From positions 1 through 22,226 of the IMG/VR virus record IMGVR_UViG_3300032006_000101: a stretch of 22,226 nt of DNA; one strand, given 5' to 3'. This document shows, in pieces, positions 13,267-20,534 of the stretch (position 1 is its first letter; each line of letters opens with the position of its first letter). The DNA is from a virus. The notes below the pieces were generated by a model. The model had not been told where the DNA came from and did not search any database. It worked only from the letters and a program-made list of their open reading frames with translations. The position numbers were made by a program, and so were the translations under genes.

Positions 13267-16104
13267 ATGGCATCAATACTACATAAAAGAAAAGCTGCTG
13301 ACCCTTCAGCAAGCGATTTAACTGTAGGTGAACTTGCCATTAATACCTCTGATGGAGGTTTATTTACAAAGACTTCAGGCGGCTCAGTAGTTGAGGTTGG
13401 TTCTGGAGGAGGAGGAGTTAGTTCAGATGCTCAGTACAACACTGTCGCTGGTACTAATGCAGGAGATAGTTTTAGTGGAACATCTGCAACTAAAAATACG
13501 TTATTGGGTTACAACGCTGGTACAGCAATAACAACTGGTGATGAGCAAGACGCATTTGGTTTTCAAGCATGTATGTCAGTCACCACTGGTTTTGCAAACT
13601 CTGCTTTTGGACACTATGCTTTAGATGCTTGTACGACTGGAACTTACAATGTTGGGATAGGAGGTGGTGCTTTAGGTGCTGTCACTACTTCTAGTGGTAA
13701 TACCGCAGTCGGTTACTTATCTTTATATCACAATACTGCTGCTGGAAATTCTGCTTTTGGTCAGAATGCGTTGCAAGGAAATACGTCTGGAGCTAGCAAT
13801 GTAGCTATTGGATATGAAACTTTAAAATCAAATACAACTGGAACAGAAAACACTTCTGTGGGTTATCAAGCTGGGTATTCTGGAAATGATAGTTATAAAA
13901 CATCAGTAGGTTTTGAATCTGCTAAAGGTTCTGGTACTGGAACATCTTATGGTACTACAGCCTTTGGTAGGAAAGCTTTACATGCAATCACTACAGGTGC
14001 TCATAATTGTGCAACAGGTAATAACAGTTCAAAATTAATAACTACTGGAGCGTATAACACTACATTAGGTAATGATTCTGGTGCTGGAATTAGTACAGGT
14101 ACAAACAATGTCTGCTTGGGATACCAAGCTGGAGATGCAATTACAACTGGCGGTAATAATATAGTTATAGGTAAAGCTGCTGCTGCAAGTTCAGCGTCAG
14201 TAGACAACGAAATAACTTTAGGCGATACAAATATCACCAAGTTCAGAGTACCTGGACTTAACTTCGTAATTAAAGATACGACAGCCACAGATAACTATGT
14301 TTTAACCGTTGACGCCAACGGAGAAGCTGGTTGGGAAGCCGCAGCAGGTGGTGGTACGTCTACTGGTGAAACTTATGTAAAATACAAAGATAATAGTGGT
14401 AGCTCAGCGAATGATGGAATTAATACTTATGCAGGTTATGAAGCAGGAAATGCTTTAGCTAGTGGAGCTAATAACAATACTTTATTCGGATATAGAGCTG
14501 GAACAGCTATAACCACAGGGGATCACAGCACTGCATTTGGTAAGGATGCTCTTAAATCAGTCACTACCGCATATGGAAATATGGGTATTGGAAAAAATGC
14601 TGGAAGAAGTATCACAACTGGCCAACAAAATACTTGCATAGGTTTAGATGCAGGTGATGCACTAACAACTCAAAGTCAGAACGTAGCTGTTGGTGAAATG
14701 GCTATGTGGCAGACAAAAGGTTCTGGAAATTGTTCAGTTGGCTATGGCTCGATGGCTCTAGCTTATTTTGGAGACTATAATACCGCCGTAGGAACTGAAG
14801 CATTACAAGAAGTCGGTGGTAGTAGTGATGGGTCTGGCGGAGATCGTAATGTTGCGATTGGTTATCAAGCTGCTAAAGCTACCGATACAGCTTCTAATAA
14901 TACTGTAGTTGGACAGGGAGCTTTAAAATCTAACGTAACTATAGGTAATCAAACAGCAATAGGTTATAGAGCTAGTTATTCCCACAATGGAACAAGCATT
15001 GAACCTAATACAACTGTTGGTTATCAAGCTGGATATTCTGGCACGACTACTGAACGACTAACAGCAGTAGGACATGAAGCTGCGTATTCAATGACAACGG
15101 CAAGTTGGAACACTGCCTATGGCTATAAGTCTTTATATAGTGCAACTACCAACGGACAAAATACAGCAATTGGTGGTTTAGCTGCTGAGTATGTAACAGG
15201 TAGTGGTAATACAGCTTTAGGTTATAAAGCTCATAACGGTGTAAGTGGAAGTACGACGGGTAGTTATAACGTTGTTATAGGTGAGAAAGCTAGTGAAAAT
15301 GCTACTACAATGCACAGCTCAACTATTGTCGGATATAGAGCTGGACGTAATATTACTACTCAGCATGATTCAGTAGCAATTGGATATCAAGCATTATATA
15401 CGGTTGCTACAGGCGAACAAAATATTGCTATCGGTGTTGATGCTCTTAAGCTCTACACCTCTAGTTATAACACTGCAATAGGTTATAAAGCTTTAGATGC
15501 AGCAACTACTGGATGGCTAAATACGTGCGTGGGAGAGGAATCTGGTGGAGCACTTACTACAGGTGCTGCAAACGCTTTCTTTGGTTATCATTCAGGGCGG
15601 AGACTAACAACGGGTAGTGGAAATGTCTGCTTAGGTTCCACTGACGCTGGTGGCTGGATAACGAGTGGTAACTACAATGTTTGTATCGGATACGAAGCTG
15701 CTGGGGCTAGTGGAGCGAGTGGTCTTACATCTGGTAGTAATAATATAATTATAGGTAAAGGAGCTACTTCAAGTAGTCAGGGAGTATCAAACCAAATAAC
15801 TTTAGGCAATACAGACATTACTAAATTCCGTATTCCAGGTATTAACTTTACGGTTAAAGATACAACGGCTACTGAAGACTACGTTCTAACAGTTGACGCC
15901 AACGGCGAAGCCGGATGGGAAGCCGCTGGAGGCGGTGGTGCTACAGGAGCTGGTGGTGATTCTATATTCTGGGAAAACGGACAAACAGTGACAACTAATT
16001 ACACAATAACTAACAACACAAATGCAGGTACTTTTGGTCCTGTAACTATCAACTCTGGTGTCACCGTAACGGTTGGTGCTGGTGAAACTTGGACGGTGAT
16101 TTAA
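13267..16104 (+). CDS. Large adhesin-like fibre protein with two YadA-like head blocks
   Basis: 945 aa, the largest fibre gene. Residues 1-45 are again tropism-determinant-like (HKRKAADPSASDLTVGELAI...GGLFTK). Then come many repeats of the type 'N.A.G..A...TTG..N.AIGY.A', the left-handed beta-roll seen in trimeric autotransporter heads. They form two blocks, about residues 77-310 and 388-838, each closed by the same neck: NN(I)xIGK, ITLG(D/N)T(N/D)ITKFR(V/I)PG, KDTTAT..YVLTVDANGE, AGWEAA. The C-terminus (892-945) is a small beta domain ending VTINSGVTVTVGAGETWTVI, common at the end of phage structural proteins. The gene starts with no gap after the previous stop, and the next gene overlaps it as TAATG. 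Likely a trimeric receptor-binding fibre or spike. Confidence 0.83.
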   Translation: MASILHKRKAADPSASDLTVGELAINTSDGGLFTKTSGGSVVEVGSGGGGVSSDAQYNTVAGTNAGDSFSGTSATKNTLLGYNAGTAITTGDEQDAFGFQACMSVTTGFANSAFGHYALDACTTGTYNVGIGGGALGAVTTSSGNTAVGYLSLYHNTAAGNSAFGQNALQGNTSGASNVAIGYETLKSNTTGTENTSVGYQAGYSGNDSYKTSVGFESAKGSGTGTSYGTTAFGRKALHAITTGAHNCATGNNSSKLITTGAYNTTLGNDSGAGISTGTNNVCLGYQAGDAITTGGNNIVIGKAAAASSASVDNEITLGDTNITKFRVPGLNFVIKDTTATDNYVLTVDANGEAGWEAAAGGGTSTGETYVKYKDNSGSSANDGINTYAGYEAGNALASGANNNTLFGYRAGTAITTGDHSTAFGKDALKSVTTAYGNMGIGKNAGRSITTGQQNTCIGLDAGDALTTQSQNVAVGEMAMWQTKGSGNCSVGYGSMALAYFGDYNTAVGTEALQEVGGSSDGSGGDRNVAIGYQAAKATDTASNNTVVGQGALKSNVTIGNQTAIGYRASYSHNGTSIEPNTTVGYQAGYSGTTTERLTAVGHEAAYSMTTASWNTAYGYKSLYSATTNGQNTAIGGLAAEYVTGSGNTALGYKAHNGVSGSTTGSYNVVIGEKASENATTMHSSTIVGYRAGRNITTQHDSVAIGYQALYTVATGEQNIAIGVDALKLYTSSYNTAIGYKALDAATTGWLNTCVGEESGGALTTGAANAFFGYHSGRRLTTGSGNVCLGSTDAGGWITSGNYNVCIGYEAAGASGASGLTSGSNNIIIGKGATSSSQGVSNQITLGNTDITKFRIPGINFTVKDTTATEDYVLTVDANGEAGWEAAGGGGATGAGGDSIFWENGQTVTTNYTITNNTNAGTFGPVTINSGVTVTVGAGETWTVI
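14155..15938 (+). repeat. Duplicated neck segment of the YadA-like fibre protein
   Basis: The segment coding NNIVIGK to GWEAAAGGG (about 14155-14353) recurs as NNIIIGK to GWEAAGGGG (about 15739-15938). The protein copies are very similar over about 66 residues, while the DNA is clearly diverged at synonymous positions (for example GACGCCAACGGAGAAGC against GACGCCAACGGCGAAGC). The two copies close two beta-roll blocks of unequal length, suggesting an old internal duplication of a head-plus-neck module. Confidence 0.8.
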
Positions 16105-16628
16105 TGACAGTAACAATAAATGGTAACGGGACCATAACCCCGACAAGTGCAATCCAACCAACAGGATCAATACTTCAAATAGTTCAATCAGTTAAAACTT
16201 CAGTTTTTAGAACTTCCTCTACAACTTGGGTTGATATAACTGACCTGACTGGAACGATAACGCCTTCATCGACAAGTAGTAAGATAATGGTTACAGGTAA
16301 TTTTATCTTAGGGACGACTAATGGAGGTTATTTCCACTTCCGAATTTTAAGAGGTACAACGGCGATTGATATTGGAGCCGCAGATGGTAATAAGACACAA
16401 GCAACTTATTCATCTTTTGCTAATGCTTACGGTTCTCAATATAATTTTTCCTATACACCGATGTACTTAGACTCACCAAGTACAACATCTGCAACTACCT
16501 ATAAATGTCAATTAAAAGTGCCTTGGTCTGGTTATGGTGCGGTTATTAATAGCACATACTCAGATACAGACTCAGACTTTTTTAGTACTTACCAATCTAA
16601 TTTCACTTTGATCGAGGTAGCAGGATGA
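16104..16628 (+). CDS. Distal fibre domain paralog 1
   Basis: 174 aa from the ATG at 16104, which overlaps the previous stop as TAATG; an in-frame TTG at 16089 is less likely. After a 25-residue N-terminal tail the protein is a single beta-rich domain: SILQIVQSVKTS, GTITPSSTSSKIMVTG, FHFRILRGTTAI, YLDSPSTTSATTYKCQL and a terminal LIEVAG. The same blocks in the same order occur in the next two genes and, more weakly, at the C-terminus of the fibre gene at 10011. I infer a tip or receptor-binding domain of the compound fibre. The pattern resembles small jelly-roll fibre tips, but no family can be named with certainty. Confidence 0.78.
   Translation: MTVTINGNGTITPTSAIQPTGSILQIVQSVKTSVFRTSSTTWVDITDLTGTITPSSTSSKIMVTGNFILGTTNGGYFHFRILRGTTAIDIGAADGNKTQATYSSFANAYGSQYNFSYTPMYLDSPSTTSATTYKCQLKVPWSGYGAVINSTYSDTDSDFFSTYQSNFTLIEVAG
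16614..16617 (+). promoter_or_regulatory. Shine-Dalgarno GAGG within the end of distal paralog 1
   Basis: GAGG lies 7 bases before the ATG at 16625 and is made of codons for the terminal (I)EVAG residues. The stop and start overlap as ATGA. It decides the start of paralog 2. Confidence 0.7.
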
Positions 16629-17209
16629 GTGCAGTAAAATTAATACCCGCAAGTGGGGGAGGTTCAGTTTCTTTAGCTCCTCCAAACTCGACAAGTGGAG
16701 CTGATGTAACAATAACAATGCCTACTGCCTCGCAAGGTTTAGGTAAGATACTTCAAGTAGTTCAACAAACAACAGACAGTACGACTTCTACATCAGGTAC
16801 TACTTATGTAGATACAGGATTATCTCAAGCAATTACACCTACCTCAAGTTCAAGCAAGATTTTAGTTACTTGCTGTGTTGTTTATGGTGGTGAAAATGAC
16901 TCTTATGCAGGGTTTAAAGTTTTAAGAGGTACAACCTCTATAGGAGAAAGCTCTCAAGGTTCAGGAAATCAGAGTAATGTTGCTTTTGGAGGTTCTGGAG
17001 ATAGAACCCATATGGAATATATGACACATCCAGTATCATGGAGTTATTTAGATTCACCGAATACAACCAGTTCCACGACATATAAAGTACAGTTTGCAGC
17101 AAGATGGGCTAGTGAAACAGTTTATATAAATAGACCACATCTTGTTACTGATCATGCTTGGGTTTTTTACACAACTTCAACTTTAACATTAATGGAGGTA
17201 GCCGCATGA
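16625..17209 (+). CDS. Distal fibre domain paralog 2
   Basis: 194 aa, beginning in an ATGA overlap with paralog 1 and using the GAGG in that gene's last codons. Residues 1-40 (AVKLIPASGGGSVSLAPP, then a Gly/Ser/Thr stretch) form an N-terminal tail. The domain follows with ILQVVQQTTDS, YVDTGLSQAITPTSSSSKIL, FKVLRGTTSIGE, YLDSPNTTSSTTYKVQF and the ending TLTLMEVAA. It is closest to paralog 3 (shared DTGLSQAITP and LDSPNTTSSTTYKVQ). The DNA of these shared blocks differs at many third positions, so the duplication is not recent. Probably part of the same fibre tip as its neighbours. Confidence 0.8.
   Translation: MSAVKLIPASGGGSVSLAPPNSTSGADVTITMPTASQGLGKILQVVQQTTDSTTSTSGTTYVDTGLSQAITPTSSSSKILVTCCVVYGGENDSYAGFKVLRGTTSIGESSQGSGNQSNVAFGGSGDRTHMEYMTHPVSWSYLDSPNTTSSTTYKVQFAARWASETVYINRPHLVTDHAWVFYTTSTLTLMEVAA
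17194..17198 (+). promoter_or_regulatory. Shine-Dalgarno GGAGG within the end of distal paralog 2
   Basis: GGAGG sits 7 bases before the ATG at 17206 and is formed by the codons for terminal Met-Glu-Val. It supports the ATG at 17206 over the upstream in-frame TTG at 17158. Confidence 0.8.
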
Positions 17210-17733
17210 GTACATTAGCTACAACAAATATAAAACATGCCTCCTCTAGTTCAAATAATATTGTCTTAGGTAGTGATGGCAGTGCTTATATTCCTGGACA
17301 TATTATTCAAACAGTACAAAACGTAAAACTTGATGCAGCAACAACAACTAGCACTAGTTTTGTAGATACAGGTTTGTCTCAGGCAATAACACCAAGTTCA
17401 ACTAGTAGTAAAATATTATGTATGTATAGTATTTATGTTTCTCAAAACGCTGGTGCATTATCCTCATTAAACCTAGTTAGAGGAAGTACTAATATTTTTC
17501 AACCATCAGGAACTGCTACCAACGAAGCAACTACATTTAATTTTGTAAATGCAGCCGATATGCAACAACATATTTGTCAGTTTTTAGATAGTCCAAATAC
17601 AACAAGTTCTACTACATACAAAGTTCAATATAAAACAAGTTCTGCTTCAGCTTTAATTGGTTTGAATAGATACTTTGATAGTGCCGATTGGCTTGGAACC
17701 AGTTCTTTAACACTTATGGAGGTAGCCGCATAA
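17206..17733 (+). CDS. Distal fibre domain paralog 3
   Basis: 175 aa. The ATG at 17206 overlaps the preceding stop (ATGA) and has a strong GGAGG, so the in-frame TTG at 17158 is rejected. An N-terminal tail (STLATTNIKHASSSSNNIVL) leads to the shared domain: HIIQTVQNVKLD, FVDTGLSQAITPSSTSSKIL, LNLVRGSTNIF, FLDSPNTTSSTTYKVQYK and SSLTLMEVAA. The region between the third and fourth blocks is the most different from paralogs 1 and 2, where a receptor-contacting loop would be expected. Its end overlaps the next gene as TAATG. Confidence 0.8.
   Translation: MSTLATTNIKHASSSSNNIVLGSDGSAYIPGHIIQTVQNVKLDAATTTSTSFVDTGLSQAITPSSTSSKILCMYSIYVSQNAGALSSLNLVRGSTNIFQPSGTATNEATTFNFVNAADMQQHICQFLDSPNTTSSTTYKVQYKTSSASALIGLNRYFDSADWLGTSSLTLMEVAA
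17718..17722 (+). promoter_or_regulatory. Shine-Dalgarno GGAGG within the end of distal paralog 3
   Basis: GGAGG lies 10 bases before the ATG at 17733 and is again made by the codons of the terminal Met-Glu-Val-Ala-Ala. It supports the ATG at 17733 over an in-frame TTG at 17688. Confidence 0.75.
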
Positions 17734-18540: not shown

Positions 18541-18834
18541 ATGGTTATACCTCCGAGTGATCTAGAGGCTCCGGAAGATGTCAAGAAAGAATCTACAGAA
18601 CAGCAAGAGCCACCTAAATTGCAAATACCTGTTATAGATATACAGATGCCACTACCCGAACCTGCGGTAGTGATAACTGCTGTTACTACTGCTGTTGTAG
18701 CGGTAGCAACAACGTCTATAACTTCATCTTTATTTGAACCAATTAAAAAGAAAGTTCAAAAGTTTATGCAAGGAAAAATAGACGCATGGAAGAAAAAGAG
18801 AGAAGCCCGAAACCTAACCTCCTCACCAGAATAA
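18541..18834 (+). CDS. Single-pass membrane protein of the lysis-position cassette
   Basis: 97 aa from the only in-frame ATG (18541). It has a Pro/Glu-rich N-terminal part (1-41), one hydrophobic segment (VVITAVTTAVVAVATT, about 43-58) and a basic C-terminal helix (EPIKKKVQKFMQGKIDAWKK). The topology suggests a bitopic inner-membrane protein. The ATG has no ribosome site, and the frame is open upstream to 18439 with protein-like, Pro-rich sequence (LPKPDALYFRPPTARIPSYK), so the true start may be a rare codon (ATT at 18451 or ATA at 18457) or a frameshift from the previous gene. The end overlaps the next small gene by 49 bases. T7 has its holin near here, but one helix and the long soluble parts make a holin call unsafe. 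Confidence 0.68.
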   Translation: MVIPPSDLEAPEDVKKESTEQQEPPKLQIPVIDIQMPLPEPAVVITAVTTAVVAVATTSITSSLFEPIKKKVQKFMQGKIDAWKKKREARNLTSSPE

Positions 18835-18923
18835 AAGATGCAGCAGAAGATACCGAGCACCATATAGCTGTACTCGGAACTTTTGTACGTCTTGGTGTCG
18901 TGGTCTGGTCGGGCTTCATCTGA
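18786..18923 (+). CDS. Holin-like membrane peptide, first half of a frame-split pair
   Basis: 45 aa, ATG at 18786 nested in the end of the previous gene. A charged N-terminus (MEEKERSPKPNLLTRIKDAA) is followed by a hydrophobic helix that reaches the stop codon (IAVLGTFVRLGVVVWSGFI, 27-45). The natural continuation of this helix, LIITLNYVEIP, lies in the -1 frame directly after the stop and runs into the next small gene without interruption. The combined product would be a protein of about 100 residues with two hydrophobic helices, compatible with a holin-like or other small membrane protein. Either the gene is frameshifted, or two subunits are made, or ribosomes shift frame. The stop lies inside an 8-base hairpin stem. 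Confidence 0.6.
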   Translation: MEEKERSPKPNLLTRIKDAAEDTEHHIAVLGTFVRLGVVVWSGFI

Positions 18924-18959
18924 TCATAACTCTTAACTACGTTGAGATACCTATGATCA
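18921..18959 (+). repeat. Perfect 8-base inverted repeat at the stop/start junction
   Basis: TGATCATA (18921-18928) and TATGATCA (18952-18959) are exact reverse complements with a 23-base loop. The left arm begins with the stop codon of the first half-gene, and the right arm contains the ATG of the second (18953). It has no T-tract and lies inside coding sequence, so it is not a terminator. It could hide the second start, stimulate frameshifting, or be chance in AT-rich DNA. Confidence 0.6.
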
Positions 18960-19102
18960 AAAAGACTCAAAACACAGATATCACTTTCGTAGCCAGTATC
19001 TTTGGGTCTGCACTTTATTCGTTTGGACTCCAGACAAATAACGGAAACAAAGGCAACGGTAAAACTGTTGATTGTCCAATGGCAAAGAAAAAAGAAACAT
19101 GA
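18953..19102 (+). CDS. Small membrane-associated protein, second half of the frame-split pair
   Basis: 49 aa from the ATG at 18953. It contains a hydrophobic stretch TFVASIFGSALYSFGL (11-26), then a polar Asn/Gly/Lys-rich tail (NNGNKGNGK...AKKKET). The reading frame is open well upstream (from about 18818), and the upstream codons continue the hydrophobic helix of the preceding ORF. The ATG may therefore be an internal Met of a longer frameshifted product and not a real start. If it is a real start, its initiation region is in the stem of the inverted repeat. The stop overlaps the next start as ATGA at 19099-19102. Confidence 0.55.
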   Translation: MIKKTQNTDITFVASIFGSALYSFGLQTNNGNKGNGKTVDCPMAKKKET

Positions 19103-19470
19103 AAAAATGGCTAGTACTCTTATTACTGGCATCACCCACAGCAGCAAGAGCAGAATTAGTAACCCCAAATTTCACTCAGGGTTCGATGAACAGTACAACC
19201 ACGACTACTCAAGAAATCGTGGAGGAAATAACAACAACTACCTACGGGTCAGCCCTAAACAAGTGGAGTGGAGAAAACATAACTCATACTTCAGCTTCTT
19301 CAGGAGGCTTAGCCGATACAGATTCGGTATTCACCTTACACACGGCTGGAGATCCCTTCTCACTAGAAGTGGTATCAAGAGCAGCCAGTCAGGTGTTATC
19401 CGTAGAAGTAATAGACAGAGAAATAGATGTCTCCTCTACTACGGTCTCCTTATCAGTCTTCTCTCAGTAA
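19099..19470 (+). CDS. Exported Thr-rich small protein
   Basis: 123 aa from the ATG at 19099 (ATGA overlap with the previous stop; the upstream in-frame TTG at 19072 is less likely because it would bury the signal peptide). Residues 1-18 are a textbook signal peptide (MKKWLVLLLLASPTAARA, then E), with no lipobox cysteine. The mature part begins LVTPNFTQGSMNSTTTTTQE and ends STTVSLSVFSQ, rich in Thr and Ser, probably beta-structured. Proteins ending '(T)TSLSVF(S/T)Q' are familiar to me from cyanophages, function unknown. From base 19107 to its end it is overlapped by another gene in a different frame. Exported proteins are uncommon in phage genomes, and together with the position this suggests action on the cell envelope late in infection. 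Confidence 0.72.
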   Translation: MKKWLVLLLLASPTAARAELVTPNFTQGSMNSTTTTTQEIVEEITTTTYGSALNKWSGENITHTSASSGGLADTDSVFTLHTAGDPFSLEVVSRAASQVLSVEVIDREIDVSSTTVSLSVFSQ

Positions 19471-19976
19471 CACCTGTTAAAGCGGAAGAGGAGAACAATA
19501 ACGTAAGTAATCCCGTGGCTGCTGCCACTGGAAATGTAACCAATCAAGCGGTGCAATTTCAGAATAATGGAGCACCGTCGAGACAGCACTACGGACCTAA
19601 TATCTCATGCAATGGAAGTACGATGACTTTCTCTCCATTCTATATGGGAAATCATACGACTCCATTTGATGAGGAGATGGTTCAACAAACATATACCGTT
19701 GCTGAGAACTGGGGAGCACAGATAAACTTTATGGTTCCTTTGGACCGTAGAGGATTACAACGTTGTCTCTCCATTGCTGCAAGACAAGAAGAGAAGATGC
19801 GTCTGGACTACGAGTTAGTCAGAGCGTTGAAATGTGCAGAGCTACAAACAAAAGGCTTCATGCTCCAACCTGGTAGCCGTGTAGCCAGTATGTGCAGCGA
19901 TGTCATACCTATCTCTGCATATCTAAAAGAAACAAATCCACCTAAACAAACTAAAAAGAAATTCGGACTATTTTGA
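19107..19976 (+). CDS. Exported or signal-anchored protein, overprinted with the upstream gene
   Basis: 289 aa from the ATG at 19107; the only other in-frame standard start near the signal is GTG at 19263, also inside the overlap. Residues 1-107 are Ser/Arg/Asn/Tyr-rich and lie entirely over the previous gene in another frame. Residues 108-126 form a signal-peptide-like segment (CLLYYGLLISLLSVTPVKA, then EEE) ending just after the overlap stops at 19470. The downstream domain contains NPVAAATGNVTNQAVQFQNN, CNGSTMTFSPFYMGN, NWGAQINFMVPLDRRGLQRC and RQEEKMRLDYELVRALKC, with three or four Cys residues in the mature part. I recognise the mature domain as a cyanophage-type protein of unknown function. 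It may be exported with a long leader or anchored in the membrane. Confidence 0.72.
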   Translation: MASTLITGITHSSKSRISNPKFHSGFDEQYNHDYSRNRGGNNNNYLRVSPKQVEWRKHNSYFSFFRRLSRYRFGIHLTHGWRSLLTRSGIKSSQSGVIRRSNRQRNRCLLYYGLLISLLSVTPVKAEEENNNVSNPVAAATGNVTNQAVQFQNNGAPSRQHYGPNISCNGSTMTFSPFYMGNHTTPFDEEMVQQTYTVAENWGAQINFMVPLDRRGLQRCLSIAARQEEKMRLDYELVRALKCAELQTKGFMLQPGSRVASMCSDVIPISAYLKETNPPKQTKKKFGLF

Positions 19977-20142: not shown

Positions 20143-20289
20143 ATGGCATTTAAAATGACAGAAGAGGAGTACATGAAGTCCCTCAAAAAGAAAAAAACTA
20201 CACCTAAAAAAAAGAAAAAAGATAAAAGGTATAACCCCTTTAAAGATGGCAGAACACCAACAGGTGCTTCACATACAACAGGTCCGTAA
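20143..20289 (+). CDS. Small Lys-rich protein, 48 aa
   Basis: ATG at 20143 with AGGGAG (20131-20136) six bases upstream, and a TAATG overlap with the terminase small subunit start. The product has an acidic start (MAFKMTEEEYMKSL), then two Lys runs (KKKKTTPKKKKKDKR, 15-29), and a Gly/Thr-rich end (FKDGRTPTGASHTTGP). Net charge is strongly positive, so nucleic-acid contact is possible. The Lys codons are mostly AAA, which gives A7 (20191-20197) and A8 (20206-20213) tracts where polymerase or ribosome slippage could occur. No function known; the tight coupling to the terminase gene supports that it is real. Confidence 0.65.
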   Translation: MAFKMTEEEYMKSLKKKKTTPKKKKKDKRYNPFKDGRTPTGASHTTGP

Positions 20290-20534
20290 TGAAGAAAGCC
20301 ACTGAAGCCCAATTTAACGAATTACATAATCTCGTCACTAAAGAATTCCTCAAGCGGGTCAAAAGTGGCGAGGCTTCTACCCAAGATTTAAAGGCAGCCT
20401 GTGATTGGCTTAAAACTAACGACATTAGCGGTATTGCATATGACGGCAACCCACTTTCTAAGCTTGCAGCCGTAATGCCAAAAGTAGATCCAGAATTAGT
20501 ACAGAGCAGACTCTATGGCAGAAAGCACAGCTGA
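20289..20534 (+). CDS. Terminase small subunit (T7 gp18-like)
   Basis: 81 aa, close to T7 gp18 (89 aa). This protein recognises the concatemer and regulates the large terminase in DNA packaging. The sequence has the recognisable T7-like small terminase pattern: an N-terminal helix ATEAQFNELHNLVTKEFLKR, then SGEASTQDLKAACDWLKTND (26-45), IAYDGNPL (48-56) and a C-terminal VDPELVQSRLYGR (66-78). The position after fibres and small lysis-region genes matches T7 order. The start overlaps the previous stop (TAATG), and its last 20 bases overlap the next gene. The large subunit is not in the window. Confidence 0.85.
   Translation: MKKATEAQFNELHNLVTKEFLKRVKSGEASTQDLKAACDWLKTNDISGIAYDGNPLSKLAAVMPKVDPELVQSRLYGRKHS

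Follow-up and report, generated by a model that had tools for sequence, protein, structure and literature searches.

The window, a 22,226-base IMG/VR virus fragment belonging to a marine cyanophage of the T7-like type that is close to the isolates NATL1A-7 and NATL2A-133, seems to encode two unrelated exported proteins, A and B, in genes that overlap in the -1 phase, with translation of B beginning on its own at a standard start codon inside gene A, probably mainly at ATG 19107; we give this reading a probability of about 0.7. Sequence comparison shows both frames to be kept by selection across hundreds of relatives, and the second frame displays the depletion of stops and of synonymous changes to be expected of overlapping genes under dual selection. 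It is rather likely that in one subclade nearly all of A is overprinted from twin out-of-frame ATGs, and that B has shifted its start position along A (to about 20, 36, 54, 63, 68, or 120 codons before its end) with the mature protein unchanged. The marine phage groups that carry A and B are very abundant, yet annotated records of close relatives of the window either lack one of the two genes or contain it in truncated form.

Genes, Products, and Genomic Setting

Gene A extends on the + strand from ATG 19099 to TAA 19468-19470 (19099..19470) and encodes 123 amino acids, beginning with the signal peptide MKKWLVLLLLASPTAARA. This export signal, like that of B, was recognised by inspection, and no other transmembrane segment is found in A. 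The protein is a member of the cyanophage gene A family phrog_650 (E 1.8e-32, residues 2-123, nearly full length) and a homologue of T4-like gene cluster (T4-GC) 236 in the Syn33 record; its match to Pfam DUF6322 is weak and lies under the cut-off of that family. Long beta strands are predicted for A with moderate confidence (pLDDT 78.5, pTM 0.37). The significant matches of a fold search with this model are uncharacterised viral proteins only, and a sequence search of solved structures yields no match. PDB matches of this model to beta-barrel pore formers fall short of significance (best E 0.056) and are given no weight here. A separate peculiarity concerns codon 2 of A (19102-19104 and the aligned codon in relatives), where Asn, if present, is encoded by AAC in all listed sequences and never by AAT. 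AAT would give TAA in the B frame one codon 5' of ATG 19107; a stop at that place should be of no consequence for a start of B at 19107, and the AAC-only pattern is puzzling.

The B frame, -1 relative to A on the same strand, runs without interruption from 18993 to TGA 19974-19976 and has two standard starts inside A, ATG 19107 and GTG 19263, in agreement with the earlier note. From the outer start, 8 nt after the ATG of A, gene B (19107..19976) would encode 289 amino acids consisting of leader, signal segment, and mature domain; from the inner start (codon -68, counted back from the stop of A like all B start positions given here; ATG in most relatives), it would encode 237 (19263..19976). 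The comparisons described below support a dual-coding overlap of 364 nt in the window (19107..19470), with 208 nt (19263-19470) as its secure minimum. The hydrophobic stretch CLLYYGLLISLL of B sits within the overlap, at the end of A, and the complete signal segment (CLLYYGLLISLLSVTPVKA, 19428..19484) leads to an expected cleavage after the Ala codon 19482-19484, in the motif VKA|E. This is 15 nt beyond the stop of A, so that the mature domain would indeed begin approximately where the overlap ends, as had been proposed. Signal segment and AXA-like cleavage motif are both conserved; the presence of such a motif after the hydrophobic segment argues against a stable transmembrane anchor, and the segment looks like a cleavable signal.

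The mature domain of B (163 amino acids, 19485..19973) contains four conserved cysteines, which are invariant columns (C48, C100, C123, and C143) of alignment A4. The structure predicted for B is a poor model of low confidence (59.5), its PDB matches are at chance level, and the same holds for a sequence search of solved structures. B is a homologue of T4-GC 235 ("gp165") and a member of phrog_848 (E 8.5e-51) and phrog_1755 (E 1.9e-51), both of which cover the mature domain, phrog_848 covering the leader as well; the Syn33 member of T4-GC 235 also matches both. The two profiles (292 and 214 positions, respectively) describe the same gene, differing in the N-terminal leader, and their division probably stems from inconsistent start annotation.

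A and B are located in a late operon, adjoining small membrane-protein genes and the gene for the small terminase. Neighbours on the + strand identified by profile matches are a small protein with one transmembrane-like segment (phrog_9426, 18541..18834) and the terminase small subunit (phrog_891, 20289..20534). Immediately 5' of A lies a gene for about 101 amino acids (phrog_721/2714, 18792-19096) that is matched in one piece in 198 loci. Six loci from at least two clades, the window among them, have inserts of 5 or 8 bases with TGA first (TGATC, TGAGGGTC, and TGAAAATC) that split this gene, each time at one and the same residue (WSGFI|IT), possibly marking a recurrent split or recoding site; the region corresponds to 1319-1629 in L016, 2380-2690 in L017, 2377-2687 in L020, 2359-2663 in L025, and 526-839 in L006. 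Elsewhere in the window, three successive genes for 179-194 amino acids (16089-17733) share motifs (GLSQAITP; ends LMEVAA or LIEVAG) and resemble tandemly arrayed paralogues that follow the tail-fibre region, and a 945-residue protein (13267-16104) contains, as judged by eye, many short NTAxGxxAL-type repeats resembling adhesin head repeats.

Constraint on the Second Frame and the Start of B

For the comparison, 400 IMG/VR loci fetched with B as query and 20 annotated regions were employed, and the stops expected in the B frame were obtained by redrawing the codons of A synonymously, related sequences being treated as independent. On this basis, codons -68..-1 of the window group (76 unique sequences) contain 0 stops against about 500 expected, with no comparable depletion in the third frame, and the earlier proposal that two exported products arise from overlapping frames is borne out. 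Myovirus overlaps contain 0 stops against 250 and 0 against 133 expected, codons -20..-1 of P-SSP7-like phages 0 against 128, and the overlap of S-RIP1-like phages 4 against about 414. Upstream of the B start, stops return to about the expected number in the myovirus groups and exceed it in the S-RIP1-like group; the P-SSP7-like group is mixed, with depletion in -96..-51 and an excess in -50..-37.

This onset of constraint coincides with start codons that are specific for each clade. One myovirus group has ATG at -20 in 71 of 71 sequences, another ATG at -54 in 77 of 83, and S-RIP1-like phages ATG at -63 in 81 of 82; the stop counts thus locate the B start in these control clades (-54, -20, and -63). 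P-SSP7-like phages start at -36 (GTG, ATG, or TTG, never CTG) or at -21, and the window group possesses starts at -68 and -120. The length of the overlap is not fixed and varies between phage lineages. The earlier note had regarded stops in the overlap, with the mature domain kept, as evidence against two overprinted products. Relatives with such stops do exist, but nearly all of the stops precede the start codon of the clade concerned; the exceptions are the 4 in the group starting at -63 and 8 that the P-SSP7-like phages, a group that includes the -21 starters, have in codons -36..-21.

The clade-specific starts also bear on two other routes to B, a -1 frameshift yielding an A-B fusion and initiation at a rare codon immediately ahead of the signal segment, the latter an option of the earlier note. 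B is in the -1 frame of A and the window has no standard start adjoining the signal segment, as such mechanisms would have it; nevertheless, standard starts are conserved at -20, -36, -54, -63, and -68 according to clade, and in clades other than that of the window they often follow an in-frame stop by a few codons, which speaks against frameshifting. Reading of the window sequence revealed no slippery heptamer for a -1 frameshift, and among candidate rare starts near the B signal (ATC, ATT, ATA, CTG) no position is conserved. Both routes are considered very improbable.

A further question is which of the two standard starts of the window group is employed. In the window subclade (55 sequences), the B frame has 0 stops in codons -118..-69 against 164 expected, or 78 if the codon background of the same gene is used. 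T before AA, AG, or GA, the sole route to a stop, is found at 0 of 362 sites in codons -117..-69, T making up 30-33% in other contexts (codons -100..-69) and reappearing at the same columns once the next codon changes (AAT|TC versus AAC|AG; CCT|CA versus CCA|AA). When events in codons -118..-69 are counted on a tree, changes to T make up 3 of 47 in a stop context against 97 of 305 elsewhere; the same test upstream of the S-RIP1-like start gives 10 of 41 against 109 of 363. The tree-based count agrees with the recoding test despite the non-independence of related sequences. ATG is present at -120 in 53 of 53 sequences of the subclade, always in the context AAA|TGG and never AAG|TGG. Against this, most sequences have K-W in A at both B start positions, where the pair can yield only ATG or GTG. 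From the selection on the open frame we infer that ATG 19107 is probably the main start of B in the window clade.

According to the principal competing interpretation, B starts at GTG 19263 only, the frame remains open as far as 19107 as a by-product, and the true overlap measures 208 nt. The sister subclade, with 21 stops upstream of -68 and none within -68..-1, is in line with it; in about half of its members, stops between -118 and -69 leave the inner start as the only usable one. Synonymous diversity is likewise not lowered in -100..-69. The lack of stops upstream of -68 in the window subclade, the tree-based test, and one locus (L074) with -120 as its sole standard start argue against this interpretation; with the depletion of stops continuing to -118, it seems unlikely. 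Two other loci (L079 and L090) have lost the -120 start and kept -68, and part of the sister subclade lacks an open frame to the outer start, which is thus not needed by the family.

Synonymous variation along A had been named as a further test, and it is lowest at the end of A. The difference at fourfold sites is 0.53-0.56 in codons -100..-69, about that of the single-coding domain (0.563), lower in -52..-21, and 0.20 in the last 20 codons, where the B signal lies and constraint is strongest. It appears that the B leader must stay open and is not conserved, the signal segment being held at the level of sequence. Such an open but unconserved leader would fit its removal along with the signal peptide, as we suppose. 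A leader of 100 residues ahead of a signal peptide is unusual and counts against initiation at 19107.

Under the preferred reading, A and B would be initiated independently, and they may be made late in infection, from an operon shared with genes for small membrane proteins and the small terminase. In the window clade, one ribosome-binding region would serve two ATGs that are separated by 8 nt and lie in different frames (ATGAANAAATGG), launching both proteins, no frameshift being required, with GTG 19263 as an inner or back-up start of B. The leader of B would be long and basic, with a Sec-type signal peptide at its end, and cleavage after VKA would free the same 163-residue cysteine-containing domain from either start.

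Relatives and Their Annotation

Relatives of B are found in 437 phage records, nearly all from cyanophages, podoviruses and myoviruses alike. Those of A number 49 at the limit used, mostly from the same podoviruses, and profile matches add A genes of myoviruses; marine cyanophages of both the T7-like and the T4-like type thus conserve the pair. Six relatives of B (L262-L267) occur inside "bacterial" assemblies, two of them from Prochlorococcus or Synechococcaceae and four from metagenome-assembled genomes of Flavobacteriaceae, Crocinitomicaceae, and Neomarinimicrobiota, the latter four probably being mis-binned cyanophage contigs.

Three close isolates, NATL1A-7, NATL2A-133, and 9515-10a, possess both starts of B. 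Public annotation of close isolates gives no more than one gene of the pair in full: B from -120 with A omitted in NATL1A-7 and 9515-10a, B from -68 with A omitted in P-SSP10, A together with a truncated B in NATL2A-133, and no annotation in R27W. Our search of the accessible literature found no paper treating the overlap. As its relatives number in the hundreds and B starts at several positions, the pair is a natural series in which to study the origin and lengthening of gene overlaps, and the setting of protein ratios by twin starts in different frames.

Possible Roles and Comparison with Known Systems

Export and gene position suggest, tentatively, that A and B are late envelope-acting proteins that aid lysis or alter the periplasm or outer membrane of the cyanobacterium, and they are candidates for an envelope-directed protein pair common to T7-like and T4-like cyanophages. 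Fold searches with both models find no convincing relative outside phages. They may instead act otherwise on the surface of the infected cell, in superinfection exclusion or a change of the host envelope, or be virion-associated. Their conservation across two phage families with common hosts fits such roles, as does the clustering of the myovirus pair with other hypothetical genes, T4-GC 235 belonging to a cluster thought to be functionally linked (Sullivan, 2010; PMC3037559). The export signals, in contrast, speak against ordinary virion parts.

The earlier note had suggested a perhaps spanin-like unit. The small transmembrane-protein genes and small terminase gene beside the two exported, overlapping proteins resemble the gene order of the T7 late region, and the two exported products and their late-operon position have held up. 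Its remark that neither protein has a lipobox cysteine now extends to 240 homologues of A and 251 of B, none of which contains a lipobox, and because of this A and B would not be a two-component spanin by definition. Furthermore, the signals of both proteins look cleavable, A has no further transmembrane segment, PHROG and Pfam scans match no spanin family, and T4-like cyanophages have the pair beside hsp20, not terminase. A lysis pair functionally analogous to Rz/Rz1 therefore seems quite unlikely.

Among orthologous pairs, gp44/gp45 of P-SSP7 and other cyanopodovirus homologues share the late-region position ahead of the small terminase; in P-SSP7 the start is at -36 instead, and many public records of these phages cut B off after its signal or omit A. 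The homologous cyanomyovirus pair T4-GC 236/235 (gp166/gp165) has the same -1 phase and an annotated overlap of 166 nt in four records, 178 nt in MED4-213, and 64 nt in S-H38, S-SM2 being the exception with no annotated overlap. It differs from the pair in the window by its start at -54, upstream of which the B frame is unconstrained, and by another genome neighbourhood, which includes hsp20 in several records. The Rz/Rz1 spanins of lambda and T7 are likewise two exported proteins from overlapping late-region frames; unlike them, A and B seem to include neither a lipoprotein nor a stable transmembrane anchor. The twin ATGs recall the dual-start motif of the lambda holin S107/S105, in which two ATGs a few bases apart are served by one ribosome-binding region, but here they lie in different frames and would give rise to unrelated proteins.
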